Shown in pieces: positions 6,527 through 29,098 of a DNA stretch of 64,000 bases (position 1 is the stretch's first letter; the number at the start of each line of letters is the position of its first letter). The position numbers were made by a program, and so were the translations under genes. Where the stretch lies: assembly GCF_014200375.1 (NCBI RefSeq), contig NZ_JACHBP010000001.1, positions 1,364,001-1,428,000 of the forward strand, written 5' to 3'. The notes beneath the pieces are model-generated. The model had not been told where the DNA came from and did no database searches. It saw nothing but the letters and a program-made list of their open reading frames with translations. The DNA comes from Terrimesophilobacter mesophilus (GTDB lineage: Bacteria > Actinomycetota > Actinomycetes > Actinomycetales > Microbacteriaceae).

Positions 6527-6599
6527 GGGGCCTTAGCTCAATTGGTAGAGCGCCTGCTTTGCAAGCAGGAGGTCAGGAGTTCGATTCTCCTAGGCTCCA
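6527..6599 (+). tRNA. tRNA-Ala (TGC anticodon)
   Basis: A 73-nucleotide cloverleaf. The acceptor stem GGGGCCT pairs with AGGCTCC (one G-T pair), the anticodon stem CCTGC/GCAGG closes the loop TTTGCAA, and the anticodon TGC is at 6560-6562. No CCA is encoded. The accessory island starts directly after it; I did not find a second copy of its 3' end that would mark an attachment site. Confidence 0.98.
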
Positions 6600-6753
6600 C
6601 TTCACGGGTTGTTCTCACTCGAACCCGATTTTGTTCTAACTTGAAATCAGCAAGCGACTGCCGGCGGGATTTCGGCCGGTTTTGTCGGTCCGGAAGTGAT
6701 CGGCGAGGCCGGATCTCCTTGCTGAAATGCAAAAAGCACGCCCTAGGCGGTGA

Positions 6754-6822: not shown

Positions 6823-8655
6823 TTATGTTTGGGGCGGCGGGTCGACTCCGGGTGCAGCGGCTGGCAGTTCCTTCAGTGGCCACTTCGCACGGTAGGGGTT
6901 CTTGCCGTCGCGGTCGCGGCGGCGAACGGGTGCCTGTCGGGGCGCGGGCTTCCGCCGGGGCGTTGTGGAGGCATTGCGAACTTTCTCCTCGTGGAGGAAG
7001 GCGGCAATCTTCCGGATGTTCGCCGAGACGACGAGCACCGTCGTGACAACCTGCTGGGCGGTGAGCCCGTGAACCCGACGGCGGGAGGCGTCGTTGATGG
7101 CTTCGTAACCGGGTTCCTTGAGAAACGCGTTGAACGCCTCCGTGGTGTTCCGGTCGCGTCGATAGGTCATCGTGTGAATTTCTGTGCCGTAGGGGAGGTC
7201 TTGAGTCATCGCGGCATTGTCGGTTTCCGTGAACGTCACCGAGGTCTGGGTGCAAATCTTGTCGGGGACGAAGTCCCCGGGAAGCACCGTGTGAGGGCGG
7301 TCTTTGCCTTTGGGTGCTCGCGAGTGGAGCTCACGCAGTTCGCATTCGACGGTAGCGCTGGGACCAAGTGCGGGACACATCTTGGGGATACTCCCGTTCG
7401 CGTCGGGGCGTTCCTTGTCGCGGAGCTGGAAGTGCAGCCTTTCATCGATGCGCTTGATGTAGGTGGCTTCGTCGATGCGATGAGCTTTCGCGTCGATGGT
7501 CGCATCGGCAAGGCTCTTCGGGACGCCGGGGCAGAGGAAGAGCCCTTCGTTGTACAGCGCGCCCTTCTTCCCGCCTTTCGTGCCAATGTCCGGTTCCCTA
7601 TAGGTGGTCAGTGGCATGAAGCCGAGCCGCTTCATGGGGAGGCCCAGTGACTTGACCTTCAGGAGGGCGAAGTAGCCCATGTCGGTCGTGCAGCGGCCAG
7701 GCTGGTGCCCGCGGTCCCTGATGAGTCGGTGGATTCGCACGGTATCCACACCCAAGTGCTTGGCACCAGGCTGGCTAAGGGAGAAGCCCATGGCGATGAG
7801 GGGAACGTCGGCCGGCCCGCTGGCGTCATGCACTACGCGGACGGAAGTGTTGGCTGCCCACCCCCATACCCAGTCCATCTGTGGCTTCCCCGTGTTGTCG
7901 AAGTGGGTCATCGACTTCGTCGGGTACCAGTCGGCGTCCGGTTCAAGGGTTTCCTTGTCTTCCAACTCCCGATGCGTGTGCTTGTCGCGCGCCGAGCGGC
8001 CCCGGCGGCTCGGGGCGGGTAGCGGAGTCTGGTCAGCGCCGACGTCGATGACCTTCTGCCGGTCCCGAATGTGTTGGGGCTGCATCTGGAAGGTCATCTC
8101 AAGCCACATGCTCGTGTACTGGTCGAGTCGCTCGCGCATCTCTCGCTGACGTTCCGGGTCCCGTGAGGCGACGATTGCCTCGCGCTCGTCGCGGCCCATC
8201 AGGCGTCGCCTGTTCGGTACCGGATACGGGTCCATGAGGTCGACCATGCGGTGAAAGGCCGTCCAGGTGTTGTTGAGCCACCGCTTCGCTTGCACTGCGT
8301 GGTCTTCGCCGAAGGCACGTGAGGCATCTGGCAGGTCGAGATACTGGCGGGCGTCATCGGTGAGCCGCCGCCAAAGAATGTCCCGCATGCTCGTAATCCA
8401 GACTGGCGAATGCTCTGTGGCGAGCAGGTAGAGCGCGACCAGAACGTGGCGGTCGTTGATGGCGACGGTGTGACCACCGGCTGCTCGTGGGTCGCGGTCT
8501 GCCGCGCGCCACTCGGCGAGCTTGTCAAGAAGGCCCGTCGCAGTAACGCGCGCATCGGCCAGTTTCACGGCGTGAAGCCCGATGGAGGTGGAGCGGGCTC
8601 CGGCGCCGCGGGTTTCATCGTCGGTGAGCTCGATGCCCTGCAGGTCGTTGGTCAT
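6823..8655 (-). CDS. DDE transposase-like protein
   Basis: A 610-residue protein that looks like a diverged DDE (RNase H-fold) transposase. The C-terminal part NTTEAFNAFLKEPG followed by RRRVHGLTAQQ and SANIRKIAAFL matches the usual Glu-containing helix and the following region of IS1182/IS5-like transposases. TTDMGYFALLKVK, around residue 324, resembles the second catalytic Asp block, and the first Asp could be in the DVGADQTP or MDWVWGW stretch. The tail is basic (PRRKPAPRQAPVRRRDRDG). Its ATG overlaps the stop of the recombinase-fold gene (ATGA), so the two are translationally coupled. I see no flanking inverted repeats that delimit a simple insertion sequence. The family is inferred from motifs and may not be catalytically complete. 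Confidence 0.6.
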   Translation of the reverse strand: MTNDLQGIELTDDETRGAGARSTSIGLHAVKLADARVTATGLLDKLAEWRAADRDPRAAGGHTVAINDRHVLVALYLLATEHSPVWITSMRDILWRRLTDDARQYLDLPDASRAFGEDHAVQAKRWLNNTWTAFHRMVDLMDPYPVPNRRRLMGRDEREAIVASRDPERQREMRERLDQYTSMWLEMTFQMQPQHIRDRQKVIDVGADQTPLPAPSRRGRSARDKHTHRELEDKETLEPDADWYPTKSMTHFDNTGKPQMDWVWGWAANTSVRVVHDASGPADVPLIAMGFSLSQPGAKHLGVDTVRIHRLIRDRGHQPGRCTTDMGYFALLKVKSLGLPMKRLGFMPLTTYREPDIGTKGGKKGALYNEGLFLCPGVPKSLADATIDAKAHRIDEATYIKRIDERLHFQLRDKERPDANGSIPKMCPALGPSATVECELRELHSRAPKGKDRPHTVLPGDFVPDKICTQTSVTFTETDNAAMTQDLPYGTEIHTMTYRRDRNTTEAFNAFLKEPGYEAINDASRRRVHGLTAQQVVTTVLVVSANIRKIAAFLHEEKVRNASTTPRRKPAPRQAPVRRRDRDGKNPYRAKWPLKELPAAAPGVDPPPQT

Positions 8656-9551
8656 GGACGCACCACCCGACCGGTAATGGTGTCTCGGTAGTCGCCGGGC
8701 GATGTCGGGGGGAGGGCCTTGATGTAGGGGCTGAGCGAAACCGCCTCCGCGAGGCCAGCCAGATTCAATACGACATTGATTGGCGCGCCCGTCTGGAGCA
8801 GCTGCACAAGCCAGGTCGCCCGCAGCCTCGTGGGTTGTGGGGTCGATTCGGTGCGGTCGTCAAGGTGGAACTGGTGGATGACTCGTGCCGGGTATTGGGG
8901 AATCCGGTACCCGGCGAAGGCCCAATCGTCCTCGGTGCGGTCGTTGAGCCCGAGACGCAGAGTCTCCTGCCACTCGAGTCTGACGGGAACCAGTCGAGGA
9001 TGCCTGCCGCGGACGTTCACCTGGAGGTCGCGCGCTTCAGCGCGCACGTCGCCAACCTTGGCGAGCGCGATTTCCGCCGCGCTCAAGCCAGCACCGGCGC
9101 CAAGGCCCAGCAACACGCGTGCGTTCCCTCGGCGGGCGGCGTTGCTGCGGCGCACAGCTGAGCTGCGAAACTCGAGGAGCTCCTCCTGCGAGTACGGGTG
9201 TGCGGCACGAGAGTCGGGTCCATCCAGTTGCGATGTCTTCCTTCCAGTCAGGTGGGTGACAAGTCGATTCAGTCGTTGTGCGGTGTGGTACTGGTACCAG
9301 TCACTTTTCGAGCTCATGACCTGATTCACGAACCGGGCGACGTTGTGGTGGGTGAAGACGCCGGCGTCGATGTCGAGGCCTGCCGTCTGCCAGGTCCAGT
9401 GCACGAACGTCGATGCCGCTGCCAGGTATGCTCGGGCGACACTCACGGTCTTCGGGTTGAAGGAGCGCACTGCCTCCTTCACGAAACCGCCGATAGCAGC
9501 CCAATGGTCCGACGACATGACGGGCGTGTACCTCTCAATCGCACGGGCCAC
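8652..9551 (-). CDS. Tyrosine-recombinase-fold protein, copy 1
   Basis: A 299-residue protein with the layout of a tyrosine recombinase: an N-terminal helical SAM-like region, then GLGAGAGLSAAEIALAKVGDV (box I region), RLRATWLVQLLQTG (box II region) and LSPYIKALP (Tyr region). Only the box II Arg and the Tyr are kept: the box I Arg is Ser, and the expected His residues of box II and of the LGH motif are absent. I chose the GTG at 9551 (Val-Ala codons GTG GCC) because the paralog at 10376-11275 starts the same way and both are then exactly 900 bases. An 18-base palindrome lies 10 bases upstream. The gene is coupled to the transposase-like gene. It may be a regulator rather than an active recombinase. 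Confidence 0.7.
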   Translation of the reverse strand: MARAIERYTPVMSSDHWAAIGGFVKEAVRSFNPKTVSVARAYLAAASTFVHWTWQTAGLDIDAGVFTHHNVARFVNQVMSSKSDWYQYHTAQRLNRLVTHLTGRKTSQLDGPDSRAAHPYSQEELLEFRSSAVRRSNAARRGNARVLLGLGAGAGLSAAEIALAKVGDVRAEARDLQVNVRGRHPRLVPVRLEWQETLRLGLNDRTEDDWAFAGYRIPQYPARVIHQFHLDDRTESTPQPTRLRATWLVQLLQTGAPINVVLNLAGLAEAVSLSPYIKALPPTSPGDYRDTITGRVVRP

Positions 9552-9561
9552 GAGACCATGG

Positions 9562-9579
9562 TGGTTATTAGAATAACCA
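9562..9579. promoter_or_regulatory. 18-bp palindrome upstream of recombinase-fold copy 1
   Basis: The sequence TGGTTATTAGAATAACCA has perfect 8-base arms around AG. It lies 10 bases upstream of the chosen GTG. A near-identical palindrome sits at the same offset upstream of the paralog (11287-11304). It probably is an operator overlapping the -10 region, or less likely a recombination core site. Confidence 0.65.
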
Positions 9580-9613
9580 GTGTCAAGCTCACCACTGACA
9601 TTGGGCTCGAGGC

Positions 9614-9629
9614 GGCTCATGCCTGAGCC
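9614..9629. promoter_or_regulatory. GGCTCA inverted repeat in the divergent gap
   Basis: GGCTCA (9614-9619) and TGAGCC (9624-9629) form an inverted repeat, and GGCTCA occurs again at 9651-9656, directly at the start codon of the HTH gene. This could be an operator for that regulator. Confidence 0.3.
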
Positions 9630-9655
9630 CCAGTGCGCTCGTCTACGCTTGGCTC

Positions 9656-9934
9656 ATGGCCCGTTCGGAGCGTGCACGACCCGCGGCGCTCAGCGATGCC
9701 TGGCCCGGCACCCCATCTCCGAGTCCTATCGGTGAGGTAGCGAGGCTGTTCGTCGTCAATCTGCGTCGGGCGATTGGCGACCGCAGCATCCGGGCAGCCG
9801 CCGAGGAGTGCGGCCTGCATCACGCGACCCTGCTCGGAATCCTGGAAGGCCGCACCTGGCCGGACCTGGAGACCATTGCCAAGCTGGAACGGGGACTGAC
9901 CGCCGACCTGTGGCCTGGGCGAACCAGTCACTAA
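9656..9934 (+). CDS. Small HTH DNA-binding protein 1
   Basis: A 92-residue protein with an XRE-like helix-turn-helix in its second half: SIRAAAEECGLHHATLLGILEGRTWPDLETIAKLERGL has the expected helix, turn and recognition helix spacing. The N-terminus is Pro/Arg rich. It is transcribed away from recombinase-fold copy 1, from a short gap that carries repeated GGCTCA elements and, further left, the 18-base palindrome. It is the best local candidate to repress that operon. The precise ligand and targets are unknown. Confidence 0.65.
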   Translation: MARSERARPAALSDAWPGTPSPSPIGEVARLFVVNLRRAIGDRSIRAAAEECGLHHATLLGILEGRTWPDLETIAKLERGLTADLWPGRTSH

Positions 9935-9978
9935 TCTACTTATTTGCTTCATGCCAGAGAGACATGCGCAAAAGAACG

Positions 9979-10012
9979 GATCTTCAAGATCAGTTGACCC
10001 TTTAGATCAACT
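9979..10012. promoter_or_regulatory. Two inverted repeats upstream of HTH gene 2
   Basis: GATCTT-C-AAGATC (9979-9991) is followed at once by AGTTGA-N9-TCAACT (9992-10012). The second repeat overlaps TTGACC (9994-9999), a good -35 element, and TAGGGT (10020-10025) lies 7 bases before the GTG of the next gene, which might be translated from a leaderless message. Together they suggest an autoregulated promoter. Confidence 0.45.
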
Positions 10013-10031
10013 CTTCGGCTAGGGTGCTGTT

Positions 10032-10379
10032 GTGACTACTGCCCGCTTTCGCCCTCGCGATTGTGCCAGGACCCCGGCCGCCTTCGGATACTCGAGGGAG
10101 ATCAGGTGGGCAGACGAGTCAGGTGCCAGCGACGACCGTCTCGATCAGATCGGCACAGCGAAGCTCCAGCACGAGTTCGCCTACCGGATCCGGGATGCTC
10201 TCGCCGCCCGCGACCTCACCGTGAAAGATTTCGCAGAGATGGAGGGACAGGACTACTTTCGCTGGCGCCGCCTGCTTCGCGGCGAGATCATCATGCGACT
10301 GGAGGACGTCACCCGGGTGGAGCGTTCCCTGGAGCTGCGGCTGGTCTCGGAGCACCGATATGGCAGCCGAGAGGACTAA
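10032..10379 (+). CDS. Small HTH-like protein 2
   Basis: A 115-residue protein whose C-terminal half (YRIRDALAARDLTVKDFAEM, then YFRWRRLLRGE) has the look of a phage-type XRE helix-turn-helix; the N-terminal half is basic without a recognised domain. GTG start at 10032, preceded by inverted repeats. It converges with recombinase-fold copy 2: the stop codons overlap by 4 bases (10376-10379). By position it is the regulator partner of that second copy, mirroring HTH gene 1 and copy 1. Confidence 0.6.
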   Translation: MTTARFRPRDCARTPAAFGYSREIRWADESGASDDRLDQIGTAKLQHEFAYRIRDALAARDLTVKDFAEMEGQDYFRWRRLLRGEIIMRLEDVTRVERSLELRLVSEHRYGSRED

Positions 10380-11275
10380 AGGCCACAGCCACGAAGCGCT
10401 GCCCGGGCGTTGTCGGGATCGACTTCGGGCACGTACTTGACGTAACGGGCGAGCGCCTCCAGCGACTGCACCCCGGCCGCGCGCAGCAGGGGCACGACGT
10501 GTACCCCGCTGGTGAGGTGATGCACAATCCAGGTCGAACGCATCCTAGGCGTTTGTGGCGTCTCCTCAGTGGTACCCGACCAGTAAATGAAGTTGGTGAT
10601 CACATTCTTGTAGACCTTGGTTCGCCCCGGCAGAAACGCCCAGTCGGTGCTGCGATGCTCTTTCACAAAGGTGATCAGAGCGGGCTCCCATTCATGCAAC
10701 AGGGGGACTGCCCTCGGCCGGTCGCCCCTGATCTCCACCAAAACCCCGCGATCGTCGAGGCGGATGTCGCCAACCCGCAGATTCGTGATCTCCCGCGCGG
10801 CCAGGCCGGCGCCGAAGCCAAGGGACAGCAACACTTCGGCATTGACCCGGCGATCGTGTGGCGACTGGGTGGCCGCCCAACTCTTGAACGAGGCCAGCTG
10901 TTCATGCGTGTAAGGGGCGAGTGCTTCGGGTAGGCCAATCGGTCTCATCCGAGGAGGCATGACCTTCGGGCCGAGCAGGAATTCGGCCATCCTCAGCAAC
11001 TGAGATCGTCTGGTGGTTCGCCCGGAGTTTGTGTAATGGGCGAGACCCTCGGCGACAAACCGCTCGATCGTGTGACGACGGAAGATGACATCTCGCTCCA
11101 ACGGCAAACCTGCCGTCTGCCACGCCCAGAGGGTAAGCCCGGTCGCGGCACGCAAGAGTTCTCCCTGCCGGTACGGAATGGCGGGTCCGGCCTCCTCGAC
11201 AGCAGTCGAAATGAAGTCGCCGATCTCGTTCCAATAGGGCGCCGCCACTTTTGGCGGTTCAAGATTTACGGCCAC
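10376..11275 (-). CDS. Tyrosine-recombinase-fold protein, copy 2
   Basis: A 299-residue paralog of the protein at 8652-9551. Shared landmarks are WAWQTAGL (WTWQTAGL in copy 1), LGFGAGLAAREITNLRVGDI, DWAFLPG, TPQTPRMRSTWIVHHLTSG and LARYVKYVP. As in copy 1, the box II Arg and the Tyr are present, but the box I Arg at its usual place and the box II and box III His residues are missing. The GTG at 11275 has a strong ribosome site (GGAGG five bases upstream) and makes both paralogs the same length; the longer in-frame reading upstream would run through the palindromic promoter. It is divergent from the four-domain/phosphoesterase operon. Confidence 0.7.
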   Translation of the reverse strand: MAVNLEPPKVAAPYWNEIGDFISTAVEEAGPAIPYRQGELLRAATGLTLWAWQTAGLPLERDVIFRRHTIERFVAEGLAHYTNSGRTTRRSQLLRMAEFLLGPKVMPPRMRPIGLPEALAPYTHEQLASFKSWAATQSPHDRRVNAEVLLSLGFGAGLAAREITNLRVGDIRLDDRGVLVEIRGDRPRAVPLLHEWEPALITFVKEHRSTDWAFLPGRTKVYKNVITNFIYWSGTTEETPQTPRMRSTWIVHHLTSGVHVVPLLRAAGVQSLEALARYVKYVPEVDPDNARAALRGCGL

Positions 11276-11286
11276 AATGTCCTCCG

Positions 11287-11304
11287 TGGTTATTATAATC
11301 ACCA
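11287..11304. promoter_or_regulatory. 18-bp palindromic operator in a bidirectional promoter
   Basis: TGGTTATTATAATCACCA matches the 9562-9579 palindrome at 16 of 18 positions and lies 11 bases from the GTG of recombinase-fold copy 2. It contains TATAAT on both strands (plus strand 11294-11299, minus strand 11292-11297), so one palindrome covers the -10 boxes for the leftward recombinase-fold gene and the rightward operon. A TTGCCG -35 candidate lies 16 bases from the minus-strand -10. Confidence 0.65.
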
Positions 11305-11360
11305 CAATGAGATCGGCAACCACCGTTGGTTCGAACGAGAGGAAGAACGTGGAGACACTA

Positions 11361-11654
11361 ATGGACAGTATTGGCGGGAGGTACGAGGTCACGACTGCGT
11401 CGTCCAGCTATTTGATCGACCTGGATCGACAGGTCATCAGGCGTTTGCCTCGTACTGGTAGCCCGGAAGGTTCGTTGCTGCGTCGCGACGACGAACTGAT
11501 CACTCTGCTCGAGGTCATTGAGTGTTCCGTCGGTCGCCGCATGATCCTGTTGCTCGATCTGCACGTGTTCGGAGTCCCTTTCACGGCACGATTTGCCACC
11601 CAGGTGCTCTCTATTGATCCGGTTGCCTCACCCGGAGTGGAGGCCGCACAATGA
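11361..11654 (+). CDS. Unknown small protein, stand-alone copy of a repeated domain (copy A)
   Basis: A 97-residue protein of no recognised family. It is one copy of a domain that occurs four times in this operon: GGRYEVTT, then YLIDLDRQVIRRLPR, then LLEVIECSVG. The others are the C-terminus of the next protein and the genes at 12795 and 13115. The ATG at 11361 has GGAG six bases upstream. An ATG at 11307, seven bases after the plus-strand TATAAT, could instead give a leaderless, longer product. The stop overlaps the next start (ATGA), so it is coupled to the phosphoesterase gene. No signal peptide or membrane segment is seen. Confidence 0.7.
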   Translation: MDSIGGRYEVTTASSSYLIDLDRQVIRRLPRTGSPEGSLLRRDDELITLLEVIECSVGRRMILLLDLHVFGVPFTARFATQVLSIDPVASPGVEAAQ

Positions 11655-12802
11655 CGCCCCCCATCACACTTCCGACCTTGTCAACGGCGCGCCTGATCGG
11701 CCTCGTCGGTGACACCCACGGTGACATGGAGCACATGTTGATCGTCTCGGAGACGATGTGGAAGCGCGGAGTTTCAGTGCTGCTGGTGCTCGGCGATTTC
11801 GGATTCATCTGGCCACGCCACAACTGGGACAACGATCTCGACAAGCTCAGCAAGAGGCTCACACAGCGTGGGCAGATGCTCTACTGGCTCGACGGAAACC
11901 ACGAAGACTTCGCTACTCTTTTCCGCAAGTTCCCGGTATCCGACGATGGCCTACGTCGGCTGCGGCCAAACATCATCCACCTGCCCCGCGGGTACCGCAC
12001 TCCACTGACGTTCGGCCGGACTCTGGCCGTCTTGGGTGGCGCGAACTCGATCGACGCCCACCATCGAGAGCTCGACAGCACATGGTGGCTCGAGGAACAA
12101 ATCTCCGATGACGATCTCGAGAAACTCGGCCACGAACACGCCGATGTGATGCTCGGCCATGACGCCCCCATACCCCTGCCGGGCCTGGACGCCTCGCTAG
12201 CGAAGGCCGACCATTACTGGCCGGCGGAGATGCTCGCCTACGCGGCTGCCGGACGCCAGAAGTTCACGGATGGCTTCCTGCAGGTCCGCCCGAGCCTTTA
12301 CTTCGGTGGCCACTACCACCAATACATTGACGAGAACGTCACCTACGGAGAAGCCGAAGCTGCCTTCGAGACCCGGGTGATCCTGCTGGGAATGAACAGC
12401 TCGAACACCCTGAGCCAGGCCGTGCTCCACCTCCAGAACCTGGAGGTCGAAGCCTTTGCCCGCAACGACACGACCGTGACCCGACTCACCGGCGCCGAAT
12501 CGGGCCTCTGGCAGGTGCGCACGCGCGATAGTACCCATCGGTTCGACCTTGATGCTCGGACTGTCGAGCGCCGACCCGGCCCCAACGCGCTACACCCCAA
12601 CATTCAAGACGTGCGCCGGCTACGCTCCATCAGCGTCTGCGAGGTAGGTGAGCGGGGGTTTTGGACTTTCCCCCCGGATGACGTGTCGGTCGATTACCTC
12701 TGGACCAACAGCTCTGTCGTCGAACGCGTCGAACGACTCCAGCCCGAAGAACGGACCACTCCAACGAATGCAGGCCAGACGAAGGCGGGCGACGATGACT
12801 GA
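11651..12802 (+). CDS. Calcineurin-like metallophosphoesterase with C-terminal repeated domain (copy B)
   Basis: A 383-residue protein. Residues about 15-250 are a metallophosphoesterase: GDTHGD (near 20), LGDFGF (near 47), DGNHED (near 83), MLGHDAP (near 170) and FGGHYHQ (near 220) are the full set of two-metal ligands, so the enzyme is probably active. Substrates of this family range from nucleotides to nucleic acids and phosphoproteins and cannot be told here. Residues about 281-363 are copy B of the repeated domain (SGLWQVRTRDSTHRFDLDA, then TVERRPGPN, then VGERGFWTF), otherwise seen alone in neighbouring genes. It overlaps the upstream gene by 4 bases and the downstream one by 8, in one operon. 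No secretion signal is seen, so it is probably cytoplasmic. Confidence 0.85.
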   Translation: MTPPITLPTLSTARLIGLVGDTHGDMEHMLIVSETMWKRGVSVLLVLGDFGFIWPRHNWDNDLDKLSKRLTQRGQMLYWLDGNHEDFATLFRKFPVSDDGLRRLRPNIIHLPRGYRTPLTFGRTLAVLGGANSIDAHHRELDSTWWLEEQISDDDLEKLGHEHADVMLGHDAPIPLPGLDASLAKADHYWPAEMLAYAAAGRQKFTDGFLQVRPSLYFGGHYHQYIDENVTYGEAEAAFETRVILLGMNSSNTLSQAVLHLQNLEVEAFARNDTTVTRLTGAESGLWQVRTRDSTHRFDLDARTVERRPGPNALHPNIQDVRRLRSISVCEVGERGFWTFPPDDVSVDYLWTNSSVVERVERLQPEERTTPTNAGQTKAGDDD

Positions 12803-13118
12803 GCCGGAAGCATCCAGCCCCGACCAAGCTCCTACGACCGCCACACCCCTGACGGGCGAGGAGGGCGGACTGTGGCGTGTCCACACCATCGGAAGTCTTC
12901 ATAGCTTCGACCTTGATGCGGGAACAGTGGAGCGCCTGCCTGGCGCTGGCGCAGCGGTCATCGACTTTCCGGGATCACATCCGCTTCTCGAAATCATCCA
13001 CTGCACCGTTGGGGCCGGTGGCTACTGGGCAATCGAGTCCGATGATCCCAGATTCAGCTATCTCGCGCACACAAGCTCCACGATCAGCCACATTGAGCGC
13101 GTCGAAAGGGACTCATGA
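12795..13118 (+). CDS. Unknown small protein, copy C of the repeated domain
   Basis: A 107-residue protein made of a short polar N-terminus and copy C of the repeated domain: EGGLWRVHTIGSLHSFDLDA, then TVERLPG, then VGAGGYWAI and a C-terminal ISHIERV. The best match in the window is the C-terminus of the phosphoesterase directly upstream, with which it overlaps by 8 bases. Its stop overlaps the start of copy D (ATGA). It may bind or regulate the phosphoesterase; that is inference from shared sequence and coupling only. Confidence 0.65.
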   Translation: MTEPEASSPDQAPTTATPLTGEEGGLWRVHTIGSLHSFDLDAGTVERLPGAGAAVIDFPGSHPLLEIIHCTVGAGGYWAIESDDPRFSYLAHTSSTISHIERVERDS

Positions 13119-13411
13119 ACCAGGTCGCGGGACTCAAAGGTGACGAAGGCGGGCGTTGGCGAATCCGGACCCAGCGCAGCTCGTAACTGGTGGATCTCGA
13201 TGCCATGACGATCACGAGGATTCCGGGGCCGAATTCGTCGTCCTCGATCAACGACTGCGAAAGGCCACTCGGCAGTCTGGAAAAGTACAGGGTCGGAGCA
13301 ACCGGGTACTGGACTATGCGCGCTGGTGCGGACTCCGACATGGTTGAGTACTTCTGGCAGTTCTCCACCGAAATACGGAGTATCGAACGGCTATCCGACG
13401 AGAACAGCTGA
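13115..13411 (+). pseudogene. Copy D of the repeated domain, interrupted by an in-frame TAA
   Basis: An ATG at 13115 overlaps the stop of copy C. The frame reads EGGRWRIRTQRSS, then TAA at 13184-13186, then continues in the same frame as LVDLDAMTITRIPGPN, VGATGYWTM and IRSIERLSDENS to 13411. Both halves align without a gap to copies A to C. The stop falls where copy A has Tyr (SSSYLIDLD), so a TAC or TAT codon changed to TAA explains it. The downstream part has a GTG at 13190 but no clear ribosome site. It is either a recent nonsense mutant or a sequencing error. Confidence 0.65.
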
Positions 13412-13472
13412 CTTCGCCGGTTCACGCGACTCGGGAGGTGCATTGTCCTGGTGGTTTGTGACGCTGCTGGGC

Positions 13473-14021
13473 TCACCAGGTCTTTGTCGAAGGGGGGCAG
13501 ACATCTGTCGGACCCATGAGCTTCCCGTCGCGCTCTGTCGTCGCGGCCCCCTCGGTCGGCTCCCATAGGATCCTTTCTCCGCTCCGCTTATAGTCGGAAA
13601 CGAAGACGTCGAAGGACGGGGGGTAGCCGCTGACTAAGCCGTTCTCCGTAAGACAGTCATACTGCGAGATCCTCGCGTCGTAGCGCTTTCGGAGTTCAGA
13701 CTCCGATAGGTCAGAGATTTTCGGCTCCCCGATCTGTTTGGTGCATTTATCGGTGGCTGCCTCCAGTTCCTCCCTCGTGGTTTCACGATTGTCGACGAGA
13801 AATCCTGCCTCGGGATCACCGGGAGGAAGATCCGCCGTTTTGATCCCTTCGTCCTCAAGGCAAGCGCGCTTCAGAACCATGTATTCCTCTGGAGTACCTT
13901 CGAAAACGCGGGTGCCCGAAGGTGAGGGCTCTATCGACTCGACCGGTGGCAGGGTCGCGCATCCAGCTAAAAGAACCAGTTCAACTGCAAGCGCGACCCC
14001 GCCGAGATACCGGCGTCTCAT
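13473..14021 (-). CDS. Lipoprotein A, paralog of lipoprotein B
   Basis: A 182-residue secreted lipoprotein: the N-terminus is basic then hydrophobic and ends in the lipobox LAGC (Cys21). The mature part is not a known enzyme. It is clearly paralogous to the product of 15155-15709: FEGTPEEYMVL/FHGTPAEWSLL, CLEDEGIKTADLP/CLEDNGLTTADLP, and GPTDVCPPSTKTW/GPTDICPRDTSTW at the C-terminus. It is coupled to secreted protein A (stop and start overlap by 4 bases at 14018-14021). By analogy with bacteriocin loci it might protect the producer or help export, but nothing in the sequence proves this. Confidence 0.8.
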   Translation of the reverse strand: MRRRYLGGVALAVELVLLAGCATLPPVESIEPSPSGTRVFEGTPEEYMVLKRACLEDEGIKTADLPPGDPEAGFLVDNRETTREELEAATDKCTKQIGEPKISDLSESELRKRYDARISQYDCLTENGLVSGYPPSFDVFVSDYKRSGERILWEPTEGAATTERDGKLMGPTDVCPPSTKTW

Positions 14022-14371
14022 CCGTGGGTCAGGCAGGATGGCACCCCATGTGCGCTAGTCGCCCCGCTGGTCCACCAATTGCCGCCACCAATTTGGGGTC
14101 CCCCAGTAGTGTTCATTGCTACGCGAGATCGGGTCCCACCCGAGGCATACACATAGTTGTAGTACGTTCCTGGCGGAGAAATCACAGTCTGGCCCCCAGT
14201 TGTGGCAGTGAGCCATCCGAAGAGCTCACCGCAGCCACGGACCCCCGAGTTGGTTACCAGAGCCGAGGCAGATATTGGAAGTGCTAGTGCAAGCACCAGC
14301 GCACCGACACCGGCCGCGGCCGCGGCCGCACTCCTCATTCCCGAGTGCTTTGAGTTGCTTCTATTTCTCAT
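14018..14371 (-). CDS. Small secreted protein A
   Basis: A 117-residue protein with a basic N-terminus, a long Ala/Leu hydrophobic stretch and a signal peptidase site after SASA, leaving a mature protein of about 80 residues. The mature part has two Cys, one near each end (RGCGELFGW and PSCLTHG), and Gly/Thr/Tyr-rich middle sequence (SPPGTYYNYVYASGGTRS). The ATG at 14371 has AAGGGA nine bases upstream. It is paralogous to secreted protein B, which is transcribed in the opposite direction 224 bases away. No known family was recognised; size, disulfide pattern and exporter context make a secreted toxin or bacteriocin possible. Confidence 0.75.
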   Translation of the reverse strand: MRNRSNSKHSGMRSAAAAAAGVGALVLALALPISASALVTNSGVRGCGELFGWLTATTGGQTVISPPGTYYNYVYASGGTRSRVAMNTTGGPQIGGGNWWTSGATSAHGVPSCLTHG

Positions 14372-14595
14372 GTCTGAATCCCTTTGATGAAGTATCGGCT
14401 TACATGGCGCGAACGTTACCACCACTATGGGGGTAGAACAACCATTTCCTTTTGCGACCGATATTGGTCCCAAACTTTGACCACTGCCAAAACCTCACAA
14501 GAAACAAAGTGTTGTAGTTTCACGTTTTGCGAGTTAGCGTCAAGCTATCGTCACAATCGTGGAGTCCTTGAATTGATGTTTAATTGGAGGGGGAA

Positions 14596-14928
14596 ATGGC
14601 TAGAAAGGTTCGACACGGATTAATGGCGACCGCAGGTGCAATAGGGGCACTCGCGCTCGCACTGGCAATACCAACTGCAGCCTCGGCTGCAGTCCACACC
14701 GGCACTTTGGGTTGTGGAGCAAAGTTCGGCTGGGTTACGGCGACTACCACCGGTTCCACGCAGATAACGCCCCCAGGAAGCAGCTGGACGTATATCTATT
14801 CGACCGGAGGCACGCGGTCGGAGGTCGCCATGACCGCGAATCAAATGCCGAAGACCGGTGGCGGCTACTGGCAGGTCTACGCATCAATCAACGCCAGCGG
14901 TAGCCCCTACTGCTCAGCCTTTGGCTGA
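14596..14928 (+). CDS. Small secreted protein B
   Basis: A 110-residue protein with a signal peptide ending AASA and a mature part close to that of secreted protein A: GCGAKFGWVTATT, then ITPPGSSWTYIYSTGGTRS, and a second Cys near the end (SPYCSAFG). The ATG at 14596 follows GGAGGGGGAA, so expression could be high. It heads the rightward cassette of lipoprotein B, adaptor, ABC ATPase and permease, separated from them by 226 bases with no gene. It is the likely substrate, or effector, of that exporter, or it may pass the membrane by its own signal peptide and be handled by the complex afterwards. Confidence 0.78.
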   Translation: MARKVRHGLMATAGAIGALALALAIPTAASAAVHTGTLGCGAKFGWVTATTTGSTQITPPGSSWTYIYSTGGTRSEVAMTANQMPKTGGGYWQVYASINASGSPYCSAFG

Positions 14929-15154
14929 TTCGCATCGCAAAGTGGGTGACGGCGGCCGTTTTTCGCTGTGACTTCAGCCACGGAGGCCGCCGCCCCCGAT
15001 GCATGCGCCATCTTTGATGACGCCAGATGAGGGTGAAATTATCAGGGCTTCCTCATAGCTTTGGTGCGTAGCGTTTCTCACAGCCAAGGATCTTTGGGCG
15101 ACCAAGGGTGGTGGATCTGGTCAACACGGGGACAAAATAAGGAGTATAGGCACG
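14929..15154. other. Gap between secreted protein B and lipoprotein B
   Basis: 226 bases without a gene. It may hold a terminator or attenuator for secreted protein B and a second promoter for the exporter genes. The only clear element is the ribosome site AGGAG (15140-15144) before the GTG at 15155. Confidence 0.4.
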
Positions 15155-15709
15155 GTGAAGAACACAAGGCTTGGCTACTCCGTCGGTCTCGGCGTGCTGG
15201 TAATTTCAGTGCTCATGGCCCTTGTAGGTTGCACGAGCACTGCGCCGGCCCCTTCGCCGACGAATGAGGGGGCAAAGATCTTTCACGGCACCCCGGCGGA
15301 ATGGAGCCTGCTATTTCGCTCCTGTCTTGAAGACAATGGCCTGACGACGGCGGATCTGCCCGACGGCGATGCAAGCGGCTTCATGCTGTCCAACGATGGT
15401 GTAACCGAGGAGCGGCGCACCGAGGTGACAACCAAGTGCCACAGCGAGATCGGTGAGCCCCAAATGGAAGGCTTGAGCGACGACGAATTGCATCGACGGT
15501 ATGAGTCCCGGTTGGATCAGTTCCAGTGCCTGCTCAAGAATGATCTGATCAGCGGCTCTCCGATGAGCTTCGAGAAGTTTGTCGATGAATACAACCGCAG
15601 CGGCCAGAAGCAACTGTGGTCGCCAGACCAGGATGCTTCGACCGTAGAGCGGGACGGCATTCTGTATGGCCCCACAGATATTTGCCCCCGAGACACCAGC
15701 ACATGGTGA
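15155..15709 (+). CDS. Lipoprotein B
   Basis: A 184-residue lipoprotein with lipobox LVGC (Cys26), paralogous to lipoprotein A. Conserved blocks are CLEDNGLTTADLP, a central acidic region with four mature Cys residues, and the C-terminal GPTDICPRDTSTW. The GTG at 15155 is preceded by AGGAG. It overlaps the start of the adaptor gene, so it belongs to the exporter operon. The role is unknown; an extracytoplasmic partner of the exporter or an immunity lipoprotein are both plausible. Confidence 0.8.
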   Translation: MKNTRLGYSVGLGVLVISVLMALVGCTSTAPAPSPTNEGAKIFHGTPAEWSLLFRSCLEDNGLTTADLPDGDASGFMLSNDGVTEERRTEVTTKCHSEIGEPQMEGLSDDELHRRYESRLDQFQCLLKNDLISGSPMSFEKFVDEYNRSGQKQLWSPDQDASTVERDGILYGPTDICPRDTSTW

Positions 15710-16755
15710 GCACCGAGCACCACAATCGGTGGCGGGTGCACGCGGCATGGGCACTCGCACTGTTGCTTGCAGTTGGAGCGGCGTCGTGGGCGACATCAGT
15801 CCTGGTGAACCCGAGTGGAGACCAGACCAAGCCAGAGGCGGCAGCTCCCAAGTACACTGCCGAAGTTGGGGAGATCGGAGTAACAACTTCCGTTCAGGCG
15901 AACGTTGTGTTTCAGGCAGGGCCTTCCGGCACTGCGGGGTTGTCGGGAACGATCACGTCGATCAACATCGAACCAGCTAAGCCGATCAATGCCGGTGATG
16001 TTCTCTTCACGATTGACCTGCGGCCGGTAGTGGTTGCGAAGGGCGCAACCCCCGCATTCCGAGACCTCTCCTATGGAGTTAGAGGCCCCGACGTACGTCA
16101 ACTGCGTCAGTTTCTCGGTCTCACGGATGCGGATGTCTTCGACGGAGCCACGTGGCGCGCCGTGGCAGCGTGGCAGAAGAAGCTCGGGGTCACTGCAGAT
16201 GGCATCGTGCATCGCGGCGACATCCTCTTCCTCAGGTCGCTACCTACCCGTGGCTACCCTTTGGAGGGAATCGAGGTCGGGTCGCCCATCATGGCGGGAC
16301 AGGCAGCGGTGGCGACTGTGCTTGAACGCCCCCTCGTAACGGTTGCCGCGGATGGGACAGGTGCGAAGTTGGCGGCCGGGATGGCGGCCAGCATGACCGT
16401 CGACGGTGTGGAGTACAAGGGCGTCCTGTCGGGGCCATCGCGCGGAACGGACGGGCTTCTCAGCTACAGCCTCACGGGTGAGGATGGATTGTCGGTCTGC
16501 ACGGCGGAATGCGCCATCGGCTTCCCCGTTACGGGAGGACAGATCTCAGTCGAGGTTGATCTCGTCCCCCGTGTGAGCGGAGTCGTGATACCTGATTCGG
16601 CGATCGCAATATTGCCGGATTCATCTACGTCCGTACGAGTGGTGGGCGGGAAGCTCATCGCCGTGAAGGTTGTCGCGAGTGGTCAGGGCCTATCGGTAGT
16701 GGAGGGACTGGAGGCAGGTACCGTCATCGAATTGTTCGCGGACGACAAGTCGTGA
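15703..16755 (+). CDS. Peptidoglycan-binding HlyD/MacA-like adaptor
   Basis: A 350-residue membrane-anchored adaptor. After one N-terminal transmembrane helix comes a lipoyl/barrel-sandwich half (VGEIGVTTSVQANVVF, ITSINIEPAKPINAGDVLFTIDLRP). In place of the usual coiled-coil hairpin it has a peptidoglycan-binding domain (YGVRGPDVRQLRQFLGL, then TWRAVAAWQKKLGVTADG), followed by the second half of the sandwich and a beta-barrel. Such proteins link an ABC pump to the cell wall in actinobacteria. The ATG at 15703 overlaps the lipoprotein stop; a GTG at 15706 is an alternative. The next gene overlaps by 4 bases. Confidence 0.85.
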   Translation: MVSTEHHNRWRVHAAWALALLLAVGAASWATSVLVNPSGDQTKPEAAAPKYTAEVGEIGVTTSVQANVVFQAGPSGTAGLSGTITSINIEPAKPINAGDVLFTIDLRPVVVAKGATPAFRDLSYGVRGPDVRQLRQFLGLTDADVFDGATWRAVAAWQKKLGVTADGIVHRGDILFLRSLPTRGYPLEGIEVGSPIMAGQAAVATVLERPLVTVAADGTGAKLAAGMAASMTVDGVEYKGVLSGPSRGTDGLLSYSLTGEDGLSVCTAECAIGFPVTGGQISVEVDLVPRVSGVVIPDSAIAILPDSSTSVRVVGGKLIAVKVVASGQGLSVVEGLEAGTVIELFADDKS

Positions 16756-17402
16756 TCGAACTCACCGACCTCACCTTCGCATACTCGGTGGCGGACCCTA
16801 TCTTCGCCGGCCTCGACCATCGGTTTGAGCCGGGTACTTCTACTGCCTTGGTAGGTCGGTCGGGATCGGGTAAGTCGACTCTTCTCTATCTCATCGGACT
16901 CATGCTCAGCCCGACCTCGGGCAACATCGCCATCGACGGCATCGCCGCAGACGCTCTCGCCGACTGGCAACGTGCGGAGATGCGGGCGCGACTCATGGGG
17001 TTCGTATTCCAAGATGCGCTGCTCGACCCCGCTCGAAGCATCATCGACAATGTCCTTGAGGGCGCCCTCTATAACGATGTCGCAGGCGGAGACACCCGCG
17101 AAGAGGCCTTGGCATTGCTGTCCCGATTCGGCGTCACAGTCGACTCTGAGCGGAGACCGGGCCAACTCTCCGGAGGACAAGCGCAACGCGTAGCCCTCTG
17201 CCGGGCACTACTTGGCGAGCCGGCAATCGTGCTGGCTGATGAGCCGACGGGCAATCTCGATGACATGAGCGCCGACATCGTATGGGATGCCCTTCTCGGC
17301 TATGCGGCAGCCGGTGCGACCGTTGTGATTGCCACCCATGATCGACAGCGAGCTGCACTGTGCACAAGCATCGTGGAAGTGGGCCATGCCGATCCGGCCT
17401 GA
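16752..17402 (+). CDS. ABC transporter ATPase (MacB/LolD type)
   Basis: A 216-residue stand-alone ATPase with Walker [10 protein letters not shown], signature LSGGQAQR, Walker [13 protein letters not shown] and the H-loop [12 protein letters not shown] places it in the MacB/LolD/FtsE group that partners FtsX-like permeases. The GTG start overlaps the adaptor stop, and the permease start overlaps this gene by 17 bases, so the three form one unit. It powers the type VII-superfamily (mechanotransmission) ABC system with the genes beside it. Confidence 0.93.
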
Positions 17403-18489
17403 GCGTGCCATACGTGAGGCGGCCCGCAACGCCACGGCTCACCGCGCGACCACGATCATGCTCATCCTGGTGACGATGGCCATGACCACGGCAACGTTCA
17501 TTACGGCTGGACGCGCAGCCGCAGCCGAGGAGGCAGTGCTTCACAGCGTCGACAATGCCGGGCCACGCCTCATCGAGGTCACTATCGCCGAGCCCTCTCC
17601 AGGTGTCGATGTCAGCACCCTGGACCGGTTCAAGCACATCGACGGTGTCGAGTGGGTGCTGGGTCTTGGCCCTGCTCGCGACGTACGCTCAAGTGTCACC
17701 GGTGCCCGCGTCAACGTCGCGGCACGGGATCTCCTCAGTCCACTACCACCCGAGGTCACAATCGATCCCGGCCGTTCGCCCCGCCCCGGCGAGGCAATCA
17801 TCGGCGCCGACACTCAGCAGCGGCTCCAGCTCATCTACCCTTCCGGGGCCTTGTTGGATTCGGGTACGTCGCGTGCTGTCGTCGGAGCGTTCAGTGCATC
17901 CGGTGCGATTACGGACCTGGATCGGCTGGTTCTCATTCAACCGGGAGCAACTTCTGCACCCAGCCAGGCAACGCTGGTCTATTTACTCGCCGATCAGGCT
18001 GAGAATGTCGCTGGGATTGTCCGCGAAGTCCGCGCGCTGGCCGCAGTCAGCCCCGTCGACTCCCTCGTGGTTCGTACGGCACCAGAACTTGTGGAACTTG
18101 CGGCGGTTCTCTCCGGTGAGATCGGAGGACTCAGCCGGCAGCTCGCCCTCGGTGCGATTCTGGTCGGTGTCGTTCTTGTCGCCCTCACCATGACCCTTGC
18201 ACTCAGCAGTCGTCGTAGGGACTTCGGTCGTCGTCGAGCCCTCGGCGCATCTCGAAGTGCGCTCATCGCTCTCACACTTTTGGAAGCGGCTTTCCCGGTT
18301 GCCATCGGCGTGATCGTCGGCACTATCGGTGGGCTTACCGCCGTCGTGCTCTGGATGGGCACGGCGCCCCCGATCGGCTTTATTGTCGCGGCGGATCTAC
18401 TCATCGCGCTAACCGGCACCGCCGCCGCAATACCACCGGCAGCTCTCGCGGCAGCGCAGGATCCGGTCCGCATTCTGCGTGTGCCATGA
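17386..18489 (+). CDS. FtsX-like ABC permease
   Basis: A 367-residue permease of the MacB/FtsX type: one N-terminal transmembrane helix (about 25-45), a large extracytoplasmic domain (about 50-255), then three helices near the C-terminus, with LALSSRRRDFGRRRALGASRS between the second and third, the coupling region for the ATPase. It ends with AAAQDPVRILRV, the usual family ending. The start is the ATG at 17386. It completes the exporter encoded by the two genes upstream. Proteins of this group usually move substrate from the outer face of the membrane outward rather than across it. Confidence 0.9.
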   Translation: MPIRPERAIREAARNATAHRATTIMLILVTMAMTTATFITAGRAAAAEEAVLHSVDNAGPRLIEVTIAEPSPGVDVSTLDRFKHIDGVEWVLGLGPARDVRSSVTGARVNVAARDLLSPLPPEVTIDPGRSPRPGEAIIGADTQQRLQLIYPSGALLDSGTSRAVVGAFSASGAITDLDRLVLIQPGATSAPSQATLVYLLADQAENVAGIVREVRALAAVSPVDSLVVRTAPELVELAAVLSGEIGGLSRQLALGAILVGVVLVALTMTLALSSRRRDFGRRRALGASRSALIALTLLEAAFPVAIGVIVGTIGGLTAVVLWMGTAPPIGFIVAADLLIALTGTAAAIPPAALAAAQDPVRILRVP

Positions 18490-18496
18490 TTTCGAT

Positions 18497-18649
18497 ATGT
18501 CTGAGACTGAAGAGTTGGCGCCCAACCCACCATGCACTTGCAGCCACCGCGAGTCTATGCATACCGAACACGGCTGCACTGATTGGCCTGAATCTCATCT
18601 GCCCGGGACGATGTGCAAGTGCACGCATCGCGGCGACGGGACTGCGTAG
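18497..18649 (+). CDS. Cys/His-rich 50-residue protein, probable zinc-binding
   Basis: A 50-residue reading frame just 7 bases after the permease stop. It contains CTCSHRESMHTEHGC and then MCKCTHRGDG, giving two C-x-C-x-H units and a central H-x2-H-x-C. This ligand spacing resembles small zinc-binding proteins often seen in actinophages and actinobacteria. No strong ribosome site is seen, so translation may rely on the upstream gene. Its tight pattern of seven or more potential metal ligands in 50 residues makes chance unlikely. Function unknown. Confidence 0.5.
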   Translation: MSETEELAPNPPCTCSHRESMHTEHGCTDWPESHLPGTMCKCTHRGDGTA

Positions 18650-18733
18650 GATCGCCTGGTTTCGTGTGTCCTAATGGGCGCGAGTAGATGATGTGAAGAT
18701 TATCTCGGCGAATGAATTGTGAAGATCCTCTTG

Positions 18734-18961
18734 CTAGATGGGCTCAAGCATGATCTCGTCGAGGACGGCGTCGGAGGCATCGTTGAGCATCTCGATACCG
18801 CGTGCGTCCAGTTCTCCAGCCACTCGCTCAAGCCACTTCAGCCGGCGGGGCGATAGATCGGGCATGTCCTCAGCCAGCTTGCGCAAACCCTGCGGACTGT
18901 AATTCCCGAACTTGATGCGACAGAGTTCTCGATCTTCCGCACTCACAATGGCTGGACTCAT
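18734..18961 (-). CDS. Hypothetical 75-residue protein
   Basis: A 75-residue, charged, helical-looking protein with no recognised domain. The ATG at 18961 has GGAG seven bases upstream, which supports it being real. It is probably cytoplasmic (no signal or membrane segment). It stands alone on the minus strand after the rightward exporter operon. Confidence 0.55.
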   Translation of the reverse strand: MSPAIVSAEDRELCRIKFGNYSPQGLRKLAEDMPDLSPRRLKWLERVAGELDARGIEMLNDASDAVLDEIMLEPI

Positions 18962-19257
18962 GTCTATTCTCCGATTCGTCTTGTATAGAACGGCTAGTCA
19001 GACGTTCATTCCTTCTATGCGCGGCAACTTTGAATGAGTGACGACCAATAGCGACGAGGCCGACCGAGATCAGCTGAGCAACGAAAGAGATCCAGCAGCA
19101 GGACAGTGTCTGGGCTCGAGGGGCACCTGCGCTTTTGAATTCCGCACCGTAGGTAAATAGCTGGTTAGACCGCTCCTGACTTTGACCAGCATCCAAGCGC
19201 TGGAGGTAAGGCAATGCGGATCGCTCAGGCAGAGCCGACAAGCCGGATCACAATGTC
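18962..19257. other. No convincing gene
   Basis: About 300 bases between two leftward genes. A minus-strand open frame overlaps here (18870-19241) and includes a short hydrophobic run, but it overlaps the better-supported gene at 18734-18961 and has no ribosome site. It may be a decayed gene. Confidence 0.4.
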
Positions 19258-19856
19258 TTAGTTCTTCTGTCGGAGCTGGTCCTTGATGGCGGCGGTGGAG
19301 TCCGCGATCCTCTTCAGGTGGCCTTTCACGCTGTCGCTATAACCTGGCGTTGGCAGCGCTTCATGCCAGAGTTCCGTTGATAGCGTGAAGTTCTCTTGAA
19401 ACCGCTTCTGCCCGATGCCATACCAAGGCCGAAGGTCACTCTTGTAGGAGATCCGACCCGTGAATCGGATCGGAATCTTATCGAAGTCCTCTTCCGGGGG
19501 CGTTCCGGCGGACCAGCTGTAGATTGTTTCCGCTCTCTGGGTGGGTGCCCAGGTGGGGATGGGGTTCGGGAACATTTTGATCAGGTCTTGGAGGGATTTC
19601 GGCATGTCCGGTGACTGCCATTTGTCGGCGTCATCGAACACGAGCTCAACATCGAAGGCGGTGCTTGGTCCGTAGTTCTGGACGCAGAAGTTCAATCTCG
19701 TCGGCTCGAGGCGTAGTTCCACGGTGGGGACCAGGACTGGGCGTGCCTGTTTGTGGCTGAGGCTCTCCTGGCGAAGCAGGGCCCACACGGCAACGACGGC
19801 GGTGACATCGCGGCCAGTGCCGAGAGGGACGCCCAGTATTCAGAAGACGGGTTCAT
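19258..19856 (-). pseudogene. Membrane-anchored hypothetical protein with an apparent N-terminal frameshift
   Basis: The main open frame (19258-19788) encodes 176 residues of unknown function whose first codons, GTG TGG GCC, fall inside a hydrophobic segment. Upstream, an ATG at 19856 opens another frame reading NPSSEYWASLSALAA; a one-base loss near 19805-19810 (reverse strand GCCGCG-AT-GTCACC) would join it to VTAVVAVWALLRQES. The joined product would have one N-terminal transmembrane helix and a cytoplasmic or extracytoplasmic beta-rich domain (RLNFCVQNYGPSTAFDVELVF). Either the gene is inactivated, there is a sequence error, or it starts within the segment. Confidence 0.5.
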
Positions 19857-20167
19857 GATGCCGAGGCTATCGAATCGGAAAGGTGCTAAATCCAGTGGTG
19901 TTCAAGAGGCGTGTATTCATCGTGTAGCCGCGACCTGTTTGGCAACACCGGTTGAGCTGTATCGGTACCGGGCCATTTCCACGGTGGCCTTGCGCTGCTA
20001 GGCGATCTCGTCCAGGCCCGAGCGGCGACGTGCGGTTTGCAGGTGGGTCGAGACAGCATGAGAGTTCCACGATAGGTGGTGGCTTCATCTTCGACGACGC
20101 ATCGCTCACCACTGTGTAGTCGTTCGCCTTGACCGCTCACCGGCTGATTTGAGACCCAAGTGCAGCC
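19857..20167. other. No gene seen
   Basis: About 310 bases between the toxin-antitoxin pair and the frameshifted gene. Short open frames exist on both strands but none has a ribosome site or recognisable product. I see no repeat or hairpin of note. Confidence 0.4.
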
Positions 20168-21298: not shown

Positions 21299-21672
21299 GA
21301 GGCCACCGCGGGCGATAGCTCTTTGCCATGCGCAGCGAGCTTTTCGACCAGAAGGGCTGGCTGATGGCCAGCACTCTTCCAGAATTGGTCGGGGGACGCG
21401 AGCTTGACTTGCTCGCCTCTTTCGTTAAGCACTAATGCAGACATTTCGACCTCCTCGAGTTGAATGGATAGTTCAGCGAAGCGGGTGCCGCGCTCCTTCA
21501 CTGGGCGAAGACGAAGGCTTCGCAGGTGGCGCAAGGTGCGCAGGTCGGGTGCCCCGGCAATGGTGAAGAGCAGGTCCTTCGCCGCAGCAGCGCTTTGCGG
21601 CCAGTGTCTCTCTAGACCGTCCGCAGCGGCGCACAGGTTATGCACGTCTGCAGAACGCCACGCTAGGAGCAC
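21295..21672 (-). CDS. HigB/RelE-like toxin
   Basis: A 125-residue protein of the RelE/HigB fold (killer protein of toxin-antitoxin systems): LLAWRSADVHNLCAAADG, then AAAAKDLLFTIAGAPDLRTLRHLRSLRLRPV, the usual basic core of HigB. Members cleave mRNA on the ribosome. The GTG at 21672 has AGGAGG five bases upstream, and that ribosome site lies in the middle of an operator palindrome. Toxin first and antitoxin second is the HigBA order. Confidence 0.78.
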   Translation of the reverse strand: MLLAWRSADVHNLCAAADGLERHWPQSAAAAKDLLFTIAGAPDLRTLRHLRSLRLRPVKERGTRFAELSIQLEEVEMSALVLNERGEQVKLASPDQFWKSAGHQPALLVEKLAAHGKELSPAVAS

Positions 21673-21727
21673 CTTTACCTCCTAGGTAAAGATAATTAAT
21701 GCTAAGCTGCTATTACCGATTAGGTAA
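21673..21727. promoter_or_regulatory. Two TTACC-N5-GGTAA operators between the toxin-antitoxin and Ubl operons
   Basis: Site 1, CTTTACC-N5-GGTAAAG (21673-21691), overlaps the toxin ribosome site; site 2, TTACC-N5-GGTAA (21713-21727), is 38 bases away centre to centre. Both have the same core and spacer length. They lie in the 111-base divergent gap that also holds the promoter of the ubiquitin-like operon, so one repressor may control both. Confidence 0.7.
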
Positions 21728-21783
21728 ATCCTAGCAGGTGCGAACTATTTGCCCTGTATCGACAACGAGAAAGTTGGACTGAG

Positions 21784-22409: not shown

Positions 22410-22411
22410 CC

Positions 22412-23896: not shown

Positions 23897-23954
23897 AATC
23901 CGCACATGTTTTCAACACCAATCGAATTATTCGTCCATGGAGAGGAGGTGAATC

Positions 23955-24074: not shown

Positions 24075-24089
24075 AAGCTGTTGTCCAAA

Positions 24090-29096: not shown

Positions 29097-29098
29097 CG

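Follow-up and report, generated by a model that had tools for sequence, protein, structure and literature searches.

What are two proteins with the fold of a tyrosine recombinase doing in a genome, when most of the residues with which such an enzyme cuts DNA are gone? The question is raised by a stretch of 64,000 nucleotides from Terrimesophilobacter mesophilus (Actinomycetota, Microbacteriaceae; assembly GCF_014200375.1, contig NZ_JACHBP010000001.1, positions 1,364,001 to 1,428,000), hereafter the window, in which the genes for two such proteins, rec1 (8652-9551, reverse strand) and rec2 (10376-11275, reverse strand), lie next to the gene for a DDE transposase (6823-8655, reverse strand). The pair belongs to the core of an element of 23,149 bp (6606-29754) inserted behind a tRNA gene. 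We consider it probable that both proteins are accessory subunits of a DDE transposon family specific for tRNA 3' ends, and that these inactive recombinases ("recs") act as target selectors, as TnsF does in the Tn7-like transposon Tn6022.

Two inactive recombinases and an intact transposase

The genes rec1 (transposase-proximal) and rec2 (transposase-distal) both start with GTG and encode proteins of 299 amino acids that share 34% identity with co-linear N-termini, in agreement with the original prediction, made from the sequence of the window, of two 299-residue paralogues with homologous starts. The Pfam Phage_integrase model recognises rec1 barely past its cut-off (3.3e-6) and leaves rec2 under it (1.6e-4); at an E-value of 0.01 it has four matches in the whole genome, namely rec1, rec2 and two strong ones (E < 1e-40) elsewhere. 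Catalytic positions were assigned through profile alignment to XerA and XerD, in the order box I Arg, hairpin Lys, box II His, box II Arg, box III His and Tyr. Compared with the expected R K H R H Y, the series reads S R T R L Y in rec1 and A R P R V Y in rec2. The box II Arg and the C-terminal Tyr are present, but neither protein has the box I Arg, the hairpin Lys or either His, and hence neither retains the set of an active tyrosine recombinase (R-K-H-R-H/W-Y). All these changes had been anticipated, apart from the loss of the hairpin Lys.

An AlphaFold2 model of rec2 built from 35 sequences (mean predicted local distance difference test score, pLDDT, 92.7) has the complete two-domain fold, with a core-binding (CB) and a catalytic (CAT) domain; its N-terminus is made of CB-domain helices, and an extra N-terminal domain is absent. 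The best PDB match found by Foldseek is XerA (5hxy, 1.4e-8). With VIA-align, XerA gives a Z score of 16.9 over 257 aligned residues (root-mean-square deviation 17.2, the orientation of the domains being different), the Tn1549 integrase 15.3 and Cre 15.0, and lower scores were obtained for the recombinase-fold phage regulators SroF (12.6), YopR (11.1) and MrpR (11.0). Structure prediction and alignment to the Xer/integrase families had been proposed as a check: the full integrase fold is there in the model, and the alignment to XerA and XerD confirms the residue losses. As modelled, rec2 is an integrase fold without the chemistry. None of the phage records matched rec2.

The start of the transposase gene overlaps the stop of rec1 by 4 bp (ATGA). 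Its product of 610 amino acids carries the triad D208, D325 and E506, invariant in 16 of 16 and 32 of 32 aligned homologues. It has no convincing match in Pfam or NCBIfam; the NCBIfam model of IS1182 (NF033551) matches three of 16 members of the transposase family (best 1.6e-6) but not the other 13, and it gives no match to the window protein. The AlphaFold2 model of the protein (pLDDT 87.3) gives a Z score of 15.9 with the Tn5 transposase, 12.3 with piggyBac, and about 9-10 with retroviral integrases and TnsB. Foldseek returned nothing below 0.001, yet its top twelve matches are all DDE enzymes. The protein is an intact DDE transposase, Tn5/IS1182-like, with its triad on an RNase H-like fold.

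Of 150 genomes of the same family (that of the window included), 21 contain relatives of rec1 and rec2, mostly in pairs; phylum-wide, a threshold of 1e-10 gives matches in 25 of 396 genomes, about half of these matches being weak. A scan of named genomes confirmed 101 loci, of which 80 were kept; these span Cryobacterium, Curtobacterium, Leifsonia, Frigoribacterium, Gordonia, Nocardia, Cellulomonas, metagenome-assembled genomes of Acidimicrobiales and others. The module is also present on seven Streptomyces plasmids, and it accounts for genes annotated as "hypothetical protein" (rec and transposase) in the two plasmid records inspected. According to tblastn and profile searches, it comprises the 610-aa transposase, one to three recs and, at some loci, a small regulator gene (HTH1). 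The genes rec1 and rec2 are therefore part of a conserved module, not stray degenerate genes.

The catalytic losses extend to the whole set of 166 recs (non-redundant at 95%): the box I Arg is found in 38, the hairpin Lys in 3, the box II His in 2, the box II Arg in 158, the box III His in none and the Tyr in 74, and no protein has more than three of the six residues. An Arg after the hairpin is kept in 165 of them, and 157 have a Trp following box II. Such a pattern, in which catalysis is lost and DNA-contact positions are retained, is that of a DNA-binding protein under selection for a non-catalytic role. The labels proximal and distal require 14 changes on the rec tree (shuffled mean 53.6), and the median identity between recs inside one element is 27%; proximal and distal recs are thus largely separate lineages.

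Element ends and tRNA targets

The target in the window is a tRNA-Ala(tgc) gene called by ARAGORN (6527-6600, forward strand), with its discriminator base A at 6599. A target-site duplication (ACTTCAC, 6599-6605) starts at that base and is followed by the left end of the element (6606-6645), where the terminal inverted repeat GGGTTGTTCTCACTCG is accompanied by a second copy, in direct orientation, of the TTGTTCT motif. The right terminal inverted repeat, CGAGTGAGAACAACCC (29739-29754), is complementary to the left end at 16 of 16 positions and borders the second ACTTCAC (29755-29761). A perfect 16-bp terminal inverted repeat and a 7-bp target duplication are the marks of a DDE transposon, and the anatomy of the element can be read directly from its sequence. 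What the original prediction had not seen is the setting of the recs: a DDE transposase encoded beside them, and around them a transposon bounded by terminal repeats and a target duplication and inserted at a tRNA gene.

In seven congeners, the sequence left of the element is homologous up to the 3' end of tRNA-Ala; in the stretches read, no element occupies this position. The right flank is non-homologous in these seven genomes, none of which yielded the gene that neighbours the element on the right, so that an exact empty site is not claimed. One of the seven (G626) has an element of its own at a different tRNA-Ala gene.

The same boundaries recur elsewhere. When 81 loci were aligned on the discriminator, the element was seen to begin a few bases past it, commonly with GGG, and many of the left ends contain two direct copies of GTTC..GAA about 22 nt apart. 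Terminal inverted repeats pairing at 12 or more of 16 positions, together with an exact duplication of 5-7 nt starting at the discriminator, are present in 21 of 88 oriented loci, many of the others being covered only in part; one of 1005 controls with mismatched duplications passed the same test. With the start of the duplication left free (-12 to +12) and at least 13 of 16 positions demanded, all 13 passing loci start at 0 (nine) or -1 (four) relative to the discriminator. The 21 bounded elements measure 3.0-34 kb, and the orientation is fixed, the transposase end facing the tRNA. Terminal inverted repeats, short duplications and an intact triad imply site-specific insertion by the DDE enzyme. 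Integrase-type att recombination, considered for the same boundaries, was rejected in view of the 5-7 bp boundary direct repeat and the inverted-repeat ends.

Mobility is illustrated by one 3,019-bp element whose copies at two loci (L168 and L169) are 99.97% identical but lie in two genomes and at two different tRNAs: at tRNA-Pro(cgg) with the duplication ACTTG, and with the duplication GCTGA at a tRNA-Arg-like 3' end, whose isotype was assigned by resemblance to another locus (L177), its contig beginning inside the tRNA. The L168 copy encodes a rec of 304 amino acids (L V P R L L at the catalytic positions), a transposase of 487 and, as its third gene, an open reading frame for 133 amino acids (1687-2088); this gene content suggests that one inactive rec and the transposase are enough in nature, HTH1 being optional. 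At five loci (L028, L033, L069, L101, L105), the right flank begins with the target duplication, to which a further left end is joined; insertions may have been stacked here behind a single tRNA. Several left ends (e.g. L026, L028) have a GC-rich hairpin with a T-rich flank after the end repeats; this hairpin might restore termination of the tRNA transcript.

The adjacency to tRNA genes was counted in 93 non-redundant loci that have a rec and 500 nt or more of 3' flank (133 3' ends gave 108 clusters after collapsing the transposases at 97% identity); these loci are phylogenetically non-independent and most were retrieved because of the presence of a rec. A convergent tRNA (73) or tmRNA (1) lies within 700 nt of the transposase stop in 74 of the 93 (median 226 nt), a non-convergent tRNA is also in range in one, and random points drawn from the remainder of these loci have such a gene in 7 of 3774 cases. 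The 73 tRNAs are Leu (24), Pro (16), Ser (13), Met (9), Arg (3), Ala (2) and six other isotypes (1 each), and a T-arm-like 3' segment of a tRNA was detected at 175-420 nt in eight of the 19 loci without a tRNA call. At L184 the adjoining target was called as a tmRNA, not as a tRNA. The isotype requires 19 changes on the tree of the proximal recs (shuffled mean 43.6), and the rec and transposase trees fit it equally well (19 changes compared with about 42-44 after shuffling); on these trees, tRNA isotype tracks the phylogeny of the module.

Proposed target selection and the alternatives

The T-arm/acceptor segment of a tRNA gene is the attB of tRNA-specific integrases. A fold that binds attB-type sites, in partners of a transposase whose insertions fall at the T-arm/acceptor end of tRNA genes, makes the recs natural target selectors, and we infer that they probably help the transposon to find the tRNA 3' end. 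In the mechanism we propose, a rec would bind the T-arm/acceptor part of the tRNA gene and, once bound, would recruit or orient the transposase, the DDE centre of which would perform all the cutting and joining. In elements with two recs, the diverged copies would probably split target binding and end binding between them; the separate lineages of proximal and distal recs indicate that they are probably used at different sites. Recs accompany the transposase even in the smallest element, of 3.0 kb.

Several observations weigh against this mechanism. Neither a tRNA nor a T-arm-like 3' segment was found in 11 of the 93 loci, both Streptomyces plasmid copies included. The occurrence of the minimal element at two isotypes speaks against a strict reading of the isotype by its rec, and the equal fit of the rec and transposase trees leaves them silent on which protein selects. 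At another locus (L239), an intact transposase (8406-10244) and a tRNA-Leu are 228 nt apart; no rec was detected in the region and its genome (G528) is absent from the phylum-wide rec matches listed, so that the transposase could recognise tRNA genes itself. Five partial transposases without a rec (L240, L241, L243, L244, L245) are also near a tRNA or tmRNA. In such copies the transposase may contribute to targeting, or suffice for it, or the rec may have been lost; four copies without a rec in the main set, most of them fragments, have no tRNA. The neighbour of the L239 transposase encodes an ATPase-like protein of 872 amino acids.

One alternative is that the DDE transposase itself recognises the tRNA gene, and that the recs bind the element ends as architectural or assembly factors. 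The motifs repeated about 22 nt apart in many of the 81 left ends would suit such a role, as would the rec-less transposase at L239; but the rec of L239 may have disappeared after insertion, one is retained even in the minimal 3.0-kb element, and we know of no tRNA specificity among IS1182/Tn5-type enzymes. Precedent for a DDE enzyme with this preference comes from eukaryotes, where the Dada transposons target tRNA genes with duplications of 6-7 bp (PMC3706591). Overall, we regard this alternative as possible but rather unlikely.

A regulatory role for the recs has to be weighed together with the small helix-turn-helix (HTH) genes, which the original prediction had placed near each rec and both of which lie between rec1 and rec2. 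HTH1 (9656-9934, forward strand), divergent from rec1, encodes an XRE-type regulator of 92 amino acids (Pfam HTH_3, 1.1e-5) and has homologues in 38 of 105 loci; HTH2 (10032-10379, forward strand) encodes an HTH protein of 115 amino acids with a weak aMBF1-like match and homologues in some elements. The palindrome TGGTTATTagAATAACCA (= TGGTTATTAGAATAACCA; 9562-9579), a probable HTH1 operator, is located upstream of rec1, and TGGTTATTatAATcACCA (= TGGTTATTATAATCACCA; 11287-11304) upstream of rec2; both are unique in the 2.41-Mb genome at up to two mismatches (control pattern, 0). The pattern TGGTNATTNNAATNACCA, at up to two mismatches, occurs at 14 places in the 105 loci (shuffled, 0) and in most cases precedes a rec or HTH1 start (by 26-31 nt for the window recs); it is found in 10 of the 38 loci with HTH1 and in none of the 67 without it. 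That the palindromes are copies of the element ends was rejected, their similarity to the ends of their own locus being 6.4 compared with 6.9 for other loci. Confinement to HTH1 loci and dissimilarity to the element ends make the HTH protein the better candidate for binding them, and the simplest reading is that HTH1 would repress the rec operons through the TGGTNATTNNAATNACCA palindromes.

We think it improbable that the recs are themselves transcription regulators of the MrpR, YopR or SroF kind, with an integrase fold put to use on the palindromes at the rec promoters. The genome-unique palindromes ahead of both rec starts and the structural matches to these three regulators favour such a role, but the palindromes go with HTH1, elements without HTH1 or palindromes still have recs, and an 8-2-8 dyad falls far short of the core sites of recombinases, which are much longer. 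The original prediction had offered "regulators or accessory DNA-binding proteins": the accessory part fits, with catalysis lost family-wide and the DNA-contact positions conserved, and the regulator part has become less likely. Finally, it is very improbable that the recs are still recombinases (by non-canonical chemistry, for cointegrate resolution or as a conventional tRNA integrase), since, despite the Tyr and box II Arg kept in part of the 166 proteins, the box III His, hairpin Lys and box II His are almost or entirely missing, and the boundaries are short duplications and inverted repeats, where integrase att sites should have left long, identical repeats of the tRNA 3' end.

Cargo and relation to known systems

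The rest of the element in the window (11277-29102) is cargo: a metallophosphoesterase, two MacB-type ABC transporter clusters, a PD-Lambda-2_B-like protein and a ThiF (E1-E2-like) protein. A small protein (11277-11654) and the calcineurin-like phosphoesterase (11651-12802) recur together as cargo of several elements (L026, L034). The transporter clusters, of the MacB/FtsX type, are located at 15616-18489 and 25239-28276. The PD-Lambda-2_B-like defence protein (20168-21298; PADLOC, 1.2e-34) and the ThiF/E1-E2-like protein (22337-23896) indicate that the element probably carries anti-phage genes.

A genomic island at the 3' end of a tRNA gene is normally ascribed to an active tyrosine integrase. 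In these elements the role is filled by a DDE transposon, which retains integrase-fold proteins that have become unable to cut. We put it at slightly better than an even chance that these elements are a new, widespread actinobacterial transposon family, in which inactive recs derived from tRNA-specific integrases select targets for a single-polypeptide Tn5/IS1182-like DDE transposase, without an AAA+ or TniQ bridge, and multi-kb cargo is placed precisely behind the acceptor stem of many tRNA genes. If the recs are selectors, they would be a case independent of TnsF in which a DDE enzyme has borrowed the specificity of an integrase, separated from its catalytic activity; with two or three proteins in 3.0 kb, the system would be small enough to reconstitute, and would provide a compact, precise and non-disruptive way of inserting large cargo in actinobacteria.

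For the terms searched, a survey of tyrosine recombinases mentions integrases that are active and lie downstream of tRNA genes, and no inactive ones (PMC8138268). In searches of open-licence PMC papers, none of the papers listed describes such elements in its title or at the start of its abstract; a description elsewhere is possible. The phage repressors MrpR, YopR and SroF, which we take to be inactive recombinase-fold proteins, resemble the recs in putting an integrase fold to regulatory use, as far as the structural matches go; they are phage regulators, whereas the recs are tied to a transposase and a tRNA target. The order of the DDE residues, the R..E..K near the last acidic residue and the Tn5 fold are shared with IS1182 and Tn5/IS4-type transposases, but the elements described here are large and cargo-bearing, with accessory recs and tRNA specificity. 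Dada elements, specific for tRNA and other small RNA genes, differ in being eukaryotic and in belonging to another transposase superfamily, and no recombinase-fold partner is named in the abstract that describes them (PMC3706591).

Two further parallels, Tsy and TnsF, are described in one paper (PMC10293859). Tsy is likewise a site-specific element with an HTH protein and paired tyrosine-recombinase-fold proteins; its movement is the work of two catalytically active recombinases, and inverted repeats were not detected in it, whereas both recs here are inactive and an intact DDE enzyme is encoded beside rec1. TnsF is an inactivated tyrosine recombinase that selects comM for the Tn7-like DDE transposon Tn6022 (Faure et al. 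2023, PMC10293859), and thus offers the same combination of a DDE transposon with an inactivated recombinase as accessory, target-selection protein at a fixed site. The transposase model of the window is nearer to Tn5 (Z 15.9) than to TnsB (about 9), and a TniQ/TnsABC partner was not found; for TniQ, the genome gave no match at an E-value of 0.01, a search that yielded matches below this cut-off in only two of 14 control genomes. TnsF has 498 amino acids, zinc fingers and a partial CAT domain, and is bridged by TniQ to the Tn7 machinery (PMC10293859), whereas the recs, with 299 amino acids, complete CB and CAT domains and no zinc-finger region, accompany a single Tn5/IS1182-like transposase at tRNA 3' ends.

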